DNA from: an uncultured Ruminiclostridium sp.
GTDB lineage: Bacteria > Bacillota > Clostridia > Oscillospirales > Ruminococcaceae
NCBI GenBank assembly: GCA_947630685.1
Contig: CANRII010000006.1
Span: 1-48,258, forward strand
Direction of reading: 5' to 3'
Length of the DNA stretch: 48,258 nucleotides
Both the position numbers and the translations under genes were made by a program. A model generated the notes under the pieces. The model saw only the letters and a program-made list of their open reading frames with translations, was not told the DNA's origin and ran no database searches. Shown here one piece after another: positions 31,609 to 36,218 of the stretch. Numbering within the stretch: position 1 is the first letter of the stretch; each line of letters begins with the position of its first letter.

Positions 31609-32649
31609 TTACCTGATAACGTCGCCGCGCGAGGTGACCGCTTTATACCCGGCGGAAATTATCCTTTGTTCAAGGCAGCTGCGGCATTGGGCGGCTTCCT
31701 CTCCGGTGCAGAGCTTGTTTTCATACAGCTTGTAAAGCTCCCTTACTCCCACGGGAGAAAGGTTCGGCATCACGACGTTCGCGCCGGCTTTCAGTCCTCT
31801 TTCCCTGCCCTGCGGGTGGATAGAGCCCAGCGCGGTGGTAGCGGGTATCAACGCATACGGGAACATCAGCCTTAATATCGCCACCAGCCTCAGCGTCAGC
31901 TCCAAGCTGCCGTTTTCCTTATCACGAAAAGGGGTGTCCTTATGCTTAATATACGGTCCTATGCCTATCATGTCCGGCGACAGCTGCTGTAAAAATCGCA
32001 GATCGCTGATAAGGTTTTCCGTAGTCTGATACGGAGAACCCACCATGAAGCCCGAGCCTACCTGATAGCCGATAGCTTTTAAGTCAAACAAACAGCGCTT
32101 GCGATCATCAAGGCTCATCTGCAAAGGGTGCAGCTTTGCGTAATGCTCGTCCGACGCGGTTTCGTGCCGCAGAAGATAACGGTCAGCGCCCGCGTCAAAA
32201 TACGCCTGATAGCTCTCACGCGGTTTTTCTCCTATAGATAAGGTTATCGCGCAGTCGGGGAATTTTTGCCGAATATTCGCCACAATGCCGCATATACGCT
32301 CGTCGGTGTAATACGGATCCTCCCCTCCCTGCAAAACAAACGTGCGAAAGCCCAGCCGGTAACCCTCCTCGCAGCAGGAGAGTATTTCTTCTTCGCTCAG
32401 GCGGTAGCGCTTAAGCCTGATATTATCCCGGCGTATTCCGCAATAGTAGCAGTTATTTTTGCAATAGTTGGTAAATTCTATCAATCCGCGCAGATATATG
32501 TCGGTTCCGTAATGCTCTTTCCTGACCTTATCTGCAAGAGAGAACAGCAGATCGTCATATATATCCGTTTCGAGTATCTCTTTTAACGCCGCATCGGGAA
32601 TATCCTGCTTACGATACAGCGTATTGATATTCTGTTCTATAGGCTCCAC
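31609..32649 (-). CDS. hydE: [FeFe]-hydrogenase maturase HydE, radical SAM (346 aa)
   Basis: Radical SAM cluster motif CKNNCYYC (CxxxCxxC) near residue 63-70, followed by LQGGEDPYYTD and GSGFMVGSPYQTT; these and the C-terminal NVVMPNLSPVGVRELY match HydE, which helps assemble the H-cluster of [FeFe]-hydrogenase. BioB/PylB-like enzymes are the nearest alternatives. The start is GTG at 32649 behind GAGGTGAT; upstream in-frame codons reach a stop at once. hydF, hydG and the hydrogenase are not in the window. Its promoter and first ~26 codons recur at 36078-36207. Confidence 0.9.
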   Translation of the reverse strand: MEPIEQNINTLYRKQDIPDAALKEILETDIYDDLLFSLADKVRKEHYGTDIYLRGLIEFTNYCKNNCYYCGIRRDNIRLKRYRLSEEEILSCCEEGYRLGFRTFVLQGGEDPYYTDERICGIVANIRQKFPDCAITLSIGEKPRESYQAYFDAGADRYLLRHETASDEHYAKLHPLQMSLDDRKRCLFDLKAIGYQVGSGFMVGSPYQTTENLISDLRFLQQLSPDMIGIGPYIKHKDTPFRDKENGSLELTLRLVAILRLMFPYALIPATTALGSIHPQGRERGLKAGANVVMPNLSPVGVRELYKLYENKLCTGEEAAQCRSCLEQRIISAGYKAVTSRGDVIR

Positions 32650-32670
32650 ATCATCACCTCGTTTAAGTTA

Positions 32671-32699
32671 ATTATACTAAATTGATAGGTAATTGTCAA
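32671..32699 (-). promoter_or_regulatory. Promoter of hydE (copy 1 of a promoter family)
   Basis: Minus strand TTGACA (32694-32699), 17-base spacer, TATAAT (32671-32676). Two closely related copies precede the genes at 34096 and 35765, each with TACAAT as -10. Confidence 0.85.
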
Positions 32700-32761
32700 G
32701 GGAGGAGAGTGTTTGCGGGGATGATGAAGTTTATATAAATCATGAAAATCACAAAAAAACA

Positions 32762-32791
32762 TTGACAAATAAAAGCGTATCGTGCTATAAT
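32762..32791 (+). promoter_or_regulatory. Promoter of the structured leader and surface protein
   Basis: TTGACA (32762-32767), 18-base spacer, TATAAT (32786-32791). The expected start is at about 32798, exactly where the first stem of the leader begins. Confidence 0.82.
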
Positions 32792-32796
32792 ATGGG

Positions 32797-32907
32797 TGCG
32801 ACACAACTGAATATTTCCTAAATGACGAGGTATAATACTTTTACTACAGGTAAAAGTGCATGCTCTTTTTTCGTATACCTTTTCATTTGGGAACGAGTTG
32901 TGTCGCA
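32797..32907 (+). ncRNA. Structured 5' leader RNA, candidate cis-regulatory element
   Basis: Closing stem P1: TGCGACACAACT (32797-32808) with AGTTGTGTCGCA (32896-32907), 12 perfect pairs. After an asymmetric internal loop (GAATAT/CG) comes P2 of about 20 pairs (TTCCTAAATGACGAGGTATA with TATACCTTTTCATTTGGGAA; one mismatch, two G-U). P2 encloses P3, ACTTTTAC / GTAAAAGT with loop TACAG, and a 16-base single strand. It lies between a promoter and a terminator that can be disrupted by P1's 3' arm, as in riboswitches. It does not match any riboswitch or T-box consensus I know. The leader region 32650-33018 holds no convincing gene. Confidence 0.6.
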
Positions 32908-32931
32908 GCAATCGGAGCTTTGCATTTTTCG

Positions 32932-32958
32932 GTGCGTAGCTTCGGCTGCGCACTTTTT
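32932..32958 (+). terminator. Leader terminator with UUCG loop, upstream of the surface-protein gene
   Basis: GTGCGTAGC, loop TTCG, GCTGCGCAC, then TTTTT: nine-base arms with one mismatch, 61 bases before the start codon. The right arm (32945-32953) can instead pair with GTGTCGCAGC (32900-32909), which overlaps the P1 right arm of the leader; nine pairs with one bulge. Confidence 0.78.
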
Positions 32959-33018
32959 AATTTTGCGGAAAAGTGCGCTGACAATACACAACCGCAAAAA
33001 GAAATCGGAGGAAACACC

Positions 33019-34020
33019 ATGATACTAAAAAAGACTGCTGCGGCTATTCTGGCGGCGGCAACGGCAATGGCGAGCGTATGTGTATGCGCTTACGCACAGG
33101 ACGATACGGCAGGAGGCGCTCCGTTTAAGTTTACATACGAAAACGTCAAGAGCGCAGACGGCTATGACGACGAGGCTATGGCGATCGTAAAACACTTTAA
33201 CGGCGACGCTTCGCAAGCCGAGGGCGCGATCGACGGCATTCTCGCGGGCAACAGCATCATCACGGCGGATTTCGGTGATAAAGGCATAGATGAAAACGCG
33301 ATACCTGTTTTCAAATTTTATAACCTTTCCGAAGACGGCACAAAAATTGAAGAAAAGTATTCGTTCAACACACATAAGCATCCTGCAACCGAGGATTATG
33401 CTTGGGAATTAGACGGAGTACGCGTCTTTTCTGACGGAATAAAAGGAAAGCCTATTGCTGCCGACGGACAGATCGACGGTATAGACTATAATACCGGCGG
33501 ATGTATTGTAGGTCAAACGACTGTACTCGGCAACAAGATAAGCGGTAACCTCATAAAGAAATTATATGAAGAAAATGTTGCAGGCGCGATCGGTATGGGA
33601 TCGGATTTTTACAGCGATGAAGAGCTTGAGGAGCTTAAAAATCTTCCGAGCTTTGACGAATATGATATGATAGAGGTCGGAATAAATATTGACGGCATGG
33701 TCTACTCAGCATTTTTCCTGAACGCAAGCTACACAGGCGATACCGAAACCCCCGAAACTTCCGAAACCCCCGAAACCTCGGAAACTCCTGAAACTTCTGA
33801 AACTCCCGAAGCTTCCGAGACTCCCGAAACCTCGGAGACTCCCGAAACTTCCGAAGCTCCTGAAACCTCGGAGACTCCCGAAGCTTCCGAAGCTCCCGAA
33901 ACCTCGGATACCTCTGATAAGGACAATCCCGCTATGGGAGCGGCTGCTATTGTTCCGGCAGTCGGAGTTGCATTCCTCGCCGGAGCTGCTGCTATAATCG
34001 CTTATAAAAAGAGAAAGTAA
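33019..34020 (+). CDS. Secreted, membrane-anchored surface protein with TPETSE repeats (333 aa)
   Basis: The ATG at 33019 with GGAGG is chosen over the upstream ORF start (32860), which lies in the leader. A signal peptide (KKTAAAILAAATAMASVCVCAYAQ) is followed by a ~220-residue unknown domain, a low-complexity linker of nine TPETSE-like hexapeptides, then DKDNPAMGAAAI, a hydrophobic helix and the tail YKKRK. The end has the shape of a sortase signal, but NPAMG departs from LPxTG or NPxTG, so it may simply be a membrane anchor. Expression is probably controlled by the structured leader. Function unknown. Confidence 0.82.
   Translation: MILKKTAAAILAAATAMASVCVCAYAQDDTAGGAPFKFTYENVKSADGYDDEAMAIVKHFNGDASQAEGAIDGILAGNSIITADFGDKGIDENAIPVFKFYNLSEDGTKIEEKYSFNTHKHPATEDYAWELDGVRVFSDGIKGKPIAADGQIDGIDYNTGGCIVGQTTVLGNKISGNLIKKLYEENVAGAIGMGSDFYSDEELEELKNLPSFDEYDMIEVGINIDGMVYSAFFLNASYTGDTETPETSETPETSETPETSETPEASETPETSETPETSEAPETSETPEASEAPETSDTSDKDNPAMGAAAIVPAVGVAFLAGAAAIIAYKKRK
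33748..33909 (+). repeat. Nine 18-base coding repeats (TPETSE)
   Basis: Nine in-frame units of 18 bases encode T/A-P-E-T/A-S-E/D. The units vary at the third codon position and at Thr/Ala, so they are not freshly amplified. Such a linker spans the cell wall. The minus-strand ORF here is its shadow. Confidence 0.9.
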
Positions 34021-35125: not shown

Positions 35126-35186
35126 ATCACCCCCCGTTTAAGTTAATTGTACTAAAATAACAGGCGATTGTCAAGAAAGGAGGCTC
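35126..35186 (-). repeat. 61-bp promoter repeat, copy at the secreted-protein gene
   Basis: These 61 bases equal 36158-36218 with one difference (c/t). The segment contains TTGACA (35169-35174), 17-base spacer, TACAAT (35146-35151) and the GGGGGGTGAT ribosome site, i.e. the complete expression signal of the gene at 34096. The two copies are direct repeats about 1.03 kb apart. A third, more divergent copy is the hydE promoter. Confidence 0.88.
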
Positions 35187-35764: not shown

Positions 35765-36154
35765 TTATCCGCCTATTTGAATACCCGTTTCAACTCTTGT
35801 AATTATCCCGTCGCTGTCATAGTACATATAGTAATAATAATCGTTTGTATCAAAATTATAAAGATAATAAGCGGCTATTCTCCCGGTGTCGATATCATAT
35901 TTTCCGTATCTTGCTTCAACATTTGAAATGTTATTTCCGACTATCCACCAATCATTATACCTTAATGATGTATGATGACTGGCATAAAACAAGATGACCG
36001 ATACTATAAACAATATTATTATAGCTACCGTAACTGTCCGTGATATTATTTTGATACGGTTCTCTCTTTTGTTCTTTAGTATCTCTTTCGGCGCCGCGTC
36101 GGGAATATCCCGCTTTTGATACAGCGTGTTGATATTCTGTTCTATAGGCTCCAC
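35765..36154 (-). CDS. Chimeric small membrane protein with a HydE-derived N terminus (129 aa)
   Basis: GTG start behind GGGGTGAT. Residues 1-26 (MEPIEQNINTLYQKRDIPDA...) equal those of HydE with 3 changes, and the DNA similarity extends through the promoter. From residue ~27 the sequence is unrelated to HydE: a basic stretch, one helix (TVTVAIIILFIVSVILFYAS, ~40-60) and an extracytoplasmic domain with DWWIVGNNISNVEARYGKYDID and a Tyr-rich strand, which recalls small BamE-like lipoprotein domains of Clostridia. So a complete promoter, ribosome site and N terminus were captured from hydE. Function unknown. Confidence 0.72.
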   Translation of the reverse strand: MEPIEQNINTLYQKRDIPDAAPKEILKNKRENRIKIISRTVTVAIIILFIVSVILFYASHHTSLRYNDWWIVGNNISNVEARYGKYDIDTGRIAAYYLYNFDTNDYYYYMYYDSDGIITRVETGIQIGG

Positions 36155-36207
36155 ATCATCACCCCCCGTTTAAGTTAATTGTACTAAAATAACAGGTGAT
36201 TGTCAAG
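36078..36207 (-). repeat. Copy of the hydE promoter and 5' coding end
   Basis: Compared by eye with 32573-32700: about 14 substitutions and a 2-base indel over 130 bases (near 88% identity). It covers the -35, -10, ribosome site, GTG start and roughly 26 codons, and remains in frame with the new 3' part. Confidence 0.88.
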
Positions 36208-36218
36208 AAAGGAGGCTC
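36158..36218 (-). repeat. 61-bp promoter repeat, copy at the chimeric gene
   Basis: Partner of 35126-35186 (60 of 61 bases). Contains TTGACA (36201-36206), 17-base spacer and TACAAT (36178-36183). Upstream of it, up to 36347, only a 37-codon ORF that runs through the promoter is seen, probably not a gene. Confidence 0.86.

Follow-up and report, generated by a model that had tools for sequence, protein, structure and literature searches.

The window, the whole stretch of 48,258 nucleotides analyzed here from an uncultured Ruminiclostridium sp., contains a gene for an exported protein that is preceded by a promoter and a long structured leader, and this arrangement raised the question of whether the leader controls the gene and which of its helices would exchange in doing so. 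The first-pass annotation had taken it for a candidate undescribed riboswitch or attenuator with mutually exclusive helices in front of a surface-protein gene; a conserved, structured attenuator leader was supported, but the mechanism offered with it was not. In our reading, to which we assign a probability of about 0.82, the leader is an attenuator that acts in cis on transcription, belongs to an undescribed family and would work through a relay of five strands (W, X, Y, Z1 and Z2; Table 1).

Table 1. Features of the leader and of the controlled gene, in positions of the window
Feature	Position	Strand	Basis
Sigma-A type promoter, TTGACA, 18-nt spacer, TATAAT, extended TG	32762-32791	+	sequence; -10 spacing in homologues
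Structured element, 111 nt, closed by P1	32797-32907		
P1 5' arm (pairs with P1 3' arm)	32797-32808	+	fold; compensatory changes in alignment; strand-swap test
P1/P2 loop UGAAUA, partly conserved	32809-32814	+	just 5' of the P2 5' strand
P2 5' strand, variable in sequence	32815-32834	+	fold; conservation
Strand W, P3 5' strand	32836-32845	+	fold; swap test of P3; within-genome test
Strand X, P3 3' strand plus conserved bulge GGUAAAAGUGCAUGCUCU	32849-32866	+	covariation; folding
P2 3' strand	32874-32893	+	fold
P1 3' arm	32896-32907	+	fold; alignment
Strand Y, GCAAUCGGAGCUUUGCAUUUUUCG	32908-32931	+	covariation; folding
Strand Z1, terminator 5' arm plus UUCG loop	32931-32944	+	terminator scan; covariation
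Strand Z2, terminator 3' arm plus U run	32945-32959	+	terminator scan; covariation
Terminator stem	32931-32940 with 32945-32954		
Pseudoknot X:Y, AAAAGUGCA with UGCAUUUUU	32852-32860 with 32921-32929		
Pseudoknot X:Y, second part, GCUCU with GGAGC	32862-32866 with 32914-32918		
Antiterminator Y:Z1, CGGAGCU with AGCUUCG	32913-32919 with 32938-32944		
Shine-Dalgarno region, GGAGG inside	33006-33015	+	direct reading
Controlled gene, ATG at 33019	33019-34020	+	direct reading of sequence

The anatomy of the leader largely agreed with what had been annotated. The promoter has 12 of 12 consensus matches and an extended TG, the 111-base element is closed by a P1 stem in which 12 of 12 pairs form, and a terminator with a UUCG loop and a T run is followed by the ribosome site. 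P2, given as about 20 bp, comprises about 19 bp interrupted by small internal loops, and P3, given as 8 bp, has 10 bp in the fold of the window leader. The leader folds far beyond chance, with an energy of -73.2 kcal/mol against -39.5 ± 3.5 kcal/mol for 200 dinucleotide shuffles, none of which equaled it (z = -9.6). The controlled gene encodes a 333-aa exported protein with a signal peptide, a region of 9-nt repeats encoding P/E/T/S, and a C-terminal transmembrane/basic anchor, and the protein had no Pfam match. The nine-base coding repeat (GAAACTCCC-like, forming a P/E/T/S stalk) spans 33727-33947 (+) and is likely to be variable in length.

Two further observations concern the neighborhood of the locus. 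On the minus strand, a promoter-leader cassette of another type is repeated, with three copies in a 3.6-kb stretch (32657-32707, 35132-35182 and 36164-36214; 82-84% identity). It consists of TTGACA, a downstream TATAAT/ACAAT-like box and then CTTAAACGGGGGGTGATGAT, and the copies lie before a radical-SAM gene, a gene for a surface protein and a small ORF. In addition, the start of the ORF at 35765-36154 (-) duplicates the beginning (~28 codons) of the HydE/BioB-like radical-SAM gene at 31609-32649 (-), with 86 nt at 91%, and is fused to an unrelated membrane-anchored tail; judged by these matches, it is a chimeric ORF from a gene-start duplication.

The distribution of the element was analyzed by searches for homologous copies. 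BLASTN among 60 relatives gave matches in 22, with up to four per genome, and a covariance model built from 24 copies detected the element in 104 of 295 genomes within the order, spread over 62 of 148 genera, and in 89 of 341 within the class, spread over 56 of 202 genera, surveys in which the copy numbers per genome are lower bounds. The element is present in about a quarter of the sampled Clostridia species. Its distribution is patchy, with single-copy genomes beside genomes with 30: one genome examined in depth harbors at least 30 copies, and the window's own genome has a single copy in the covariance-model searches and no further ones with a second model, R2. Outside the class, two phylum samples of 349 and 300 genomes contained no copies, the only match being the window's own genome, and R2 likewise detected none there. 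The titled records with the element are nearly all MAGs, assigned to Oscillospiraceae, Ruminococcaceae, Ruminiclostridium and other Clostridia and largely from animal gut. The matches bearing on a phage or plasmid origin were two unannotated 'phage' clones from stool and one viral contig, no plasmid was found to carry the element, and such an origin was rejected. The copy on the viral contig (L222, 6411-6579) adjoins an ORF resembling an IS transposase as well as phage-tail-like ORFs, as judged by eye, and because of these neighbors the promoter-RNA-terminator unit may travel on mobile elements. Whole units also occur in tandem in several genomes, spaced 45-160 nt and each with its own promoter (L062, with three in a row, L063, L064, L065, L066, L219, L231, L234, L238 and L240), and in L063 a truncated gene start follows the first copy, as if leader and gene start had been duplicated together.

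The copies share a fixed frame. Of 212 non-redundant copies, 149 have a -10 box (TGnTATAAT) that ends exactly 5 nt 5' of P1 and 162 have the extended TG, with a spacer of 17 as the rule; from the distance between the -10 box and P1, transcripts should start at or beside the first P1 bases. Downstream, an ORF led by a Shine-Dalgarno (SD) sequence was found in 229 of 261 copies, its start codon lying a median of 22 nt past the T run, and because of this ORF at a fixed distance the element is, by its sequence context, a leader and not a free RNA. The general layout of an attenuator was found, namely, a 5' leader with an intrinsic terminator just upstream of the SD sequence and start codon, and a mutually exclusive antiterminator backed by evolution. 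A leader peptide was considered and rejected, since homologues often have GCATACTC in place of the ATG-containing GCATGCTC; a leader reading frame conserved among them was likewise not observed.

The helices were then compared by a swap test, in which the duplex energies of a copy's own strands are set against those of strands exchanged among 216 non-redundant copies. By this test, whose z scores are inflated by the relatedness of the copies, own partners were strongly preferred in P1 (z = -40), in P3, where W pairs with X (z = -21.9), in a pseudoknot between X and Y (z = -20.6), and in an antiterminator between Y and Z (z = -16), and a control gave -0.6. Pair-count covariation, which relatedness inflates in the same way, exceeded that of shuffled data for P1 plus terminator (0.400 versus 0.163), the pseudoknot (0.216 versus 0.175), and the antiterminator Y:Z1 (0.267 versus 0.201), with 0 of 500 shuffles reaching the observed value in each case; the inner A-U pairs of the pseudoknot are almost invariant and hence uninformative on covariation. 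A within-genome test reduces the inflation: in the 30-copy genome the pseudoknot, the antiterminator and P3 favored their own partners (0 of 20,000 permutations), and in three smaller genomes the pseudoknot and P3 agreed, the antiterminator being nonsignificant in two of the three. The pairings of the relay are supported by sequence evolution, including that among the 30 copies of a single genome. Strand X can pair alternatively with W, forming P3, or with Y, forming the pseudoknot; neither this pseudoknot nor the antiterminator Y:Z1, both backed by covariation, had been annotated before.

The expected covariation of P1 was also found, with compensatory changes in 11 of 13 aligned pairs, but the role that had been given to P1 was not borne out. 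According to the first-pass annotation, the leader is an OFF switch in which the terminator 3' arm captures the P1 3' arm (32900-32909 with 32945-32953) and P1 itself switches. The complementarity is literally there in the window, and 86% of cells pair, which is explained by both strands being conserved for other reasons; own and swapped partners, however, were equal in energy (z = -1.6), the covariation score was that of the shuffles (0.100 versus 0.100, 247 of 500), and in 32 of 90 copies the key C-G pair, one of nine, is lost, since P1 there has C-G, U-A or A-U instead of G-C and the terminator does not change to match. We regard this mechanism as very unlikely indeed, and P1 is, on the comparative evidence, a constant scaffold with very strong covariation rather than a switch. 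A standalone trans-acting small RNA, to which the downstream gene would be incidental, would fit with the unit having its own promoter and a strong terminator, and with the tandem copies, but it leaves unexplained the SD-led ORF close behind the T run and a covariation that preserves an antiterminator destructive to the RNA's own terminator. Moreover, X and Y vary among the copies of one genome and yet keep their pairing in cis, where a shared trans target predicts otherwise, and we consider this explanation very improbable. That the repeats instead serve at the DNA level, as operators bound by a repressor at the start site, is barely conceivable: the arms of P1 do form a perfect inverted repeat, located near +1 and +100, but the imperfect pairs are G-U far more often than A-C (59:4 in P1, 95:0 in the terminator, 153:21 in the pseudoknot and 340:18 in the antiterminator), an asymmetry that contradicts operators and places the functional pairing in the sense RNA, and the operator model was rejected.

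With the attenuator as the preferred reading, the anatomy of the leader suggests that the pairings of the relay would control transcription termination in the following way. Polymerase would initiate at P1, and P1 would close the sensor domain and set Y beside X. In the ON state, X would be held by W in P3, leaving Y to pair with Z1 as the antiterminator, so that the terminator would be blocked and the gene transcribed. In the OFF state, X and Y would form the pseudoknot, which crosses P1 and would act as an anti-antiterminator, and Z1 would then pair with Z2 into the terminator and stop transcription. When the pseudoknot was imposed in folding, the terminator formed in 99.5% of the copies and the antiterminator in 0%, and folding without the pseudoknot gave the antiterminator in 58% and the terminator in 42%. 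The copies that favor the terminator without the pseudoknot show that the default state is not fixed by folding energy alone. In the window, the two states have energies of -68.4 and -72.2 before any pseudoknot penalty, that is, within a few kcal/mol of each other, which is the closeness that a switch needs.

As to the genes controlled, the targets of at least 150 aa are exported in 74% of cases against 18% of neighboring ORFs (odds ratio 12.6, p = 5e-31), with export called by a simple hydrophobicity heuristic, not by SignalP. Among 132 downstream proteins, BspA-type LRRs were found in 23 and SLH domains in 5, together with HTH, AMP-binding, Big_2, M23 and CHAP domains. The small targets are mostly soluble proteins without an assigned function, and 60-90 aa soluble families recur behind the RNA in several genomes (L056, L226, L227 and L200; L066, L076 and L078; L083, L152, L168 and L199). 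Small AbrB-like proteins with a C-terminal zinc ribbon (two CxxC pairs) are also encoded downstream of the RNA (L239, L242, L246, L252, L258 and L065) and possibly constitute a regulator family; as an autoregulator of the element they were rejected, since they account for only 6 of 229 targets, five of them in one genome.

With a regulon made up chiefly of surface proteins that are exported and of small accessory ones, the signal probably reflects general physiology and not a single metabolite pathway. That the RNA itself binds it, as a small molecule or an ion, has close to an even chance. The most conserved bases lie in the exchanging strands, and the unpaired conservation of the sensor domain is modest, with a moderately conserved AAUA-like P1/P2 loop, and falls below the expectation for a classic aptamer. 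This leaves room for the same relay being controlled by a protein that stabilizes P3 or the pseudoknot by binding to the P1/P2/P3 domain, as L10(L12)4 binds the Bacillus subtilis rplJL leader, the closest documented logic (PMC4538822); on the other hand, the patchy distribution and the single-copy genomes beside the 30-copy one point rather to an intrinsic sensor or to a universal factor, and no gene class resembling an autoregulator dominates the targets; protein input is less likely than not. Temperature, transcription rate or another input is an unlikely signal.

The absence of the element from the known RNA classes had been anticipated from its core, and in Rfam 15 no family reached the gathering score in the window, the best subthreshold match in a permissive search having 21 bits against a cutoff of 55; in 20 diverse homologous loci Rfam recognized just tRNAs and a Gut-1 RNA, none of them at the element. 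T-box leaders are Firmicute leader RNAs with an antiterminator/terminator exchange, which they share with the element, but its targets are not amino-acid or tRNA genes and no T-box match was obtained with Rfam in the window or the 20 loci. In trp-type attenuators a chain of strands also has alternative neighbors, whereas the element has one strand more and lacks a conserved leader reading frame.

The nearest documented logic is that of the B. subtilis rplJL leader, where an anti-antiterminator, an antiterminator and a terminator compete and L10(L12)4 binds the first of them (PMC4538822). There, as proposed for the element, the anti-antiterminator promotes termination (PMC4538822), but rplJL is one protein-bound operon, whereas the element has a pseudoknot across its closing stem and occurs in many copies before varied surface genes. 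The targets of the element are surface and small accessory proteins and not rplJ with an L10 site upstream, and no ribosomal protein gene dominates among them. In guanidine-IV and Gd4v, the latter enriched in gut samples, a hairpin lying upstream is connected to that of the terminator by a pseudoknot, which acts in termination control (PMC9788692). This involvement of a pseudoknot is shared by the element, but those RNAs consist of two hairpins and the pseudoknot with many conserved nucleotides around, and they control an exporter, a GNAT or a transaminase, whereas the element is closed by a long P1 located at the transcription start, its antiterminator is separate, and its targets are surface proteins. 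The guanidine-IV model of Rfam gave no match at the window or the 20 homologous loci, and Gd4v was set apart by its description only. Neither rplJL nor guanidine-IV/Gd4v is the same family. The literature searched contained no described equivalent, although the element may be among the unnamed candidates of a human-microbiome RNA survey (PMC8040213). The element is an undescribed and widespread class of cis-regulatory RNA, within a known kind, the attenuators, and with an unusual architecture.

In its widest form, which we propose tentatively and at somewhat less than even odds, the finding would be a riboswitch class not described before, one that responds to a general cellular signal (a second messenger, an ion or growth state) and, through a pseudoknot-based five-strand relay, has direct control over a large part of the variable surface proteome; this would apply to about one in four Clostridia species, with up to 30 genes per genome. 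The many sequence-divergent copies within one genome lend themselves naturally to a search for the ligand or protein, and also to testing the pseudoknot as an anti-antiterminator. If the reading is true, one uncatalogued RNA family would govern numerous genes for surface proteins, lipoproteins and BspA-like proteins in Clostridia of the gut, mostly uncultured, and would point to a shared, so far unnamed signal.
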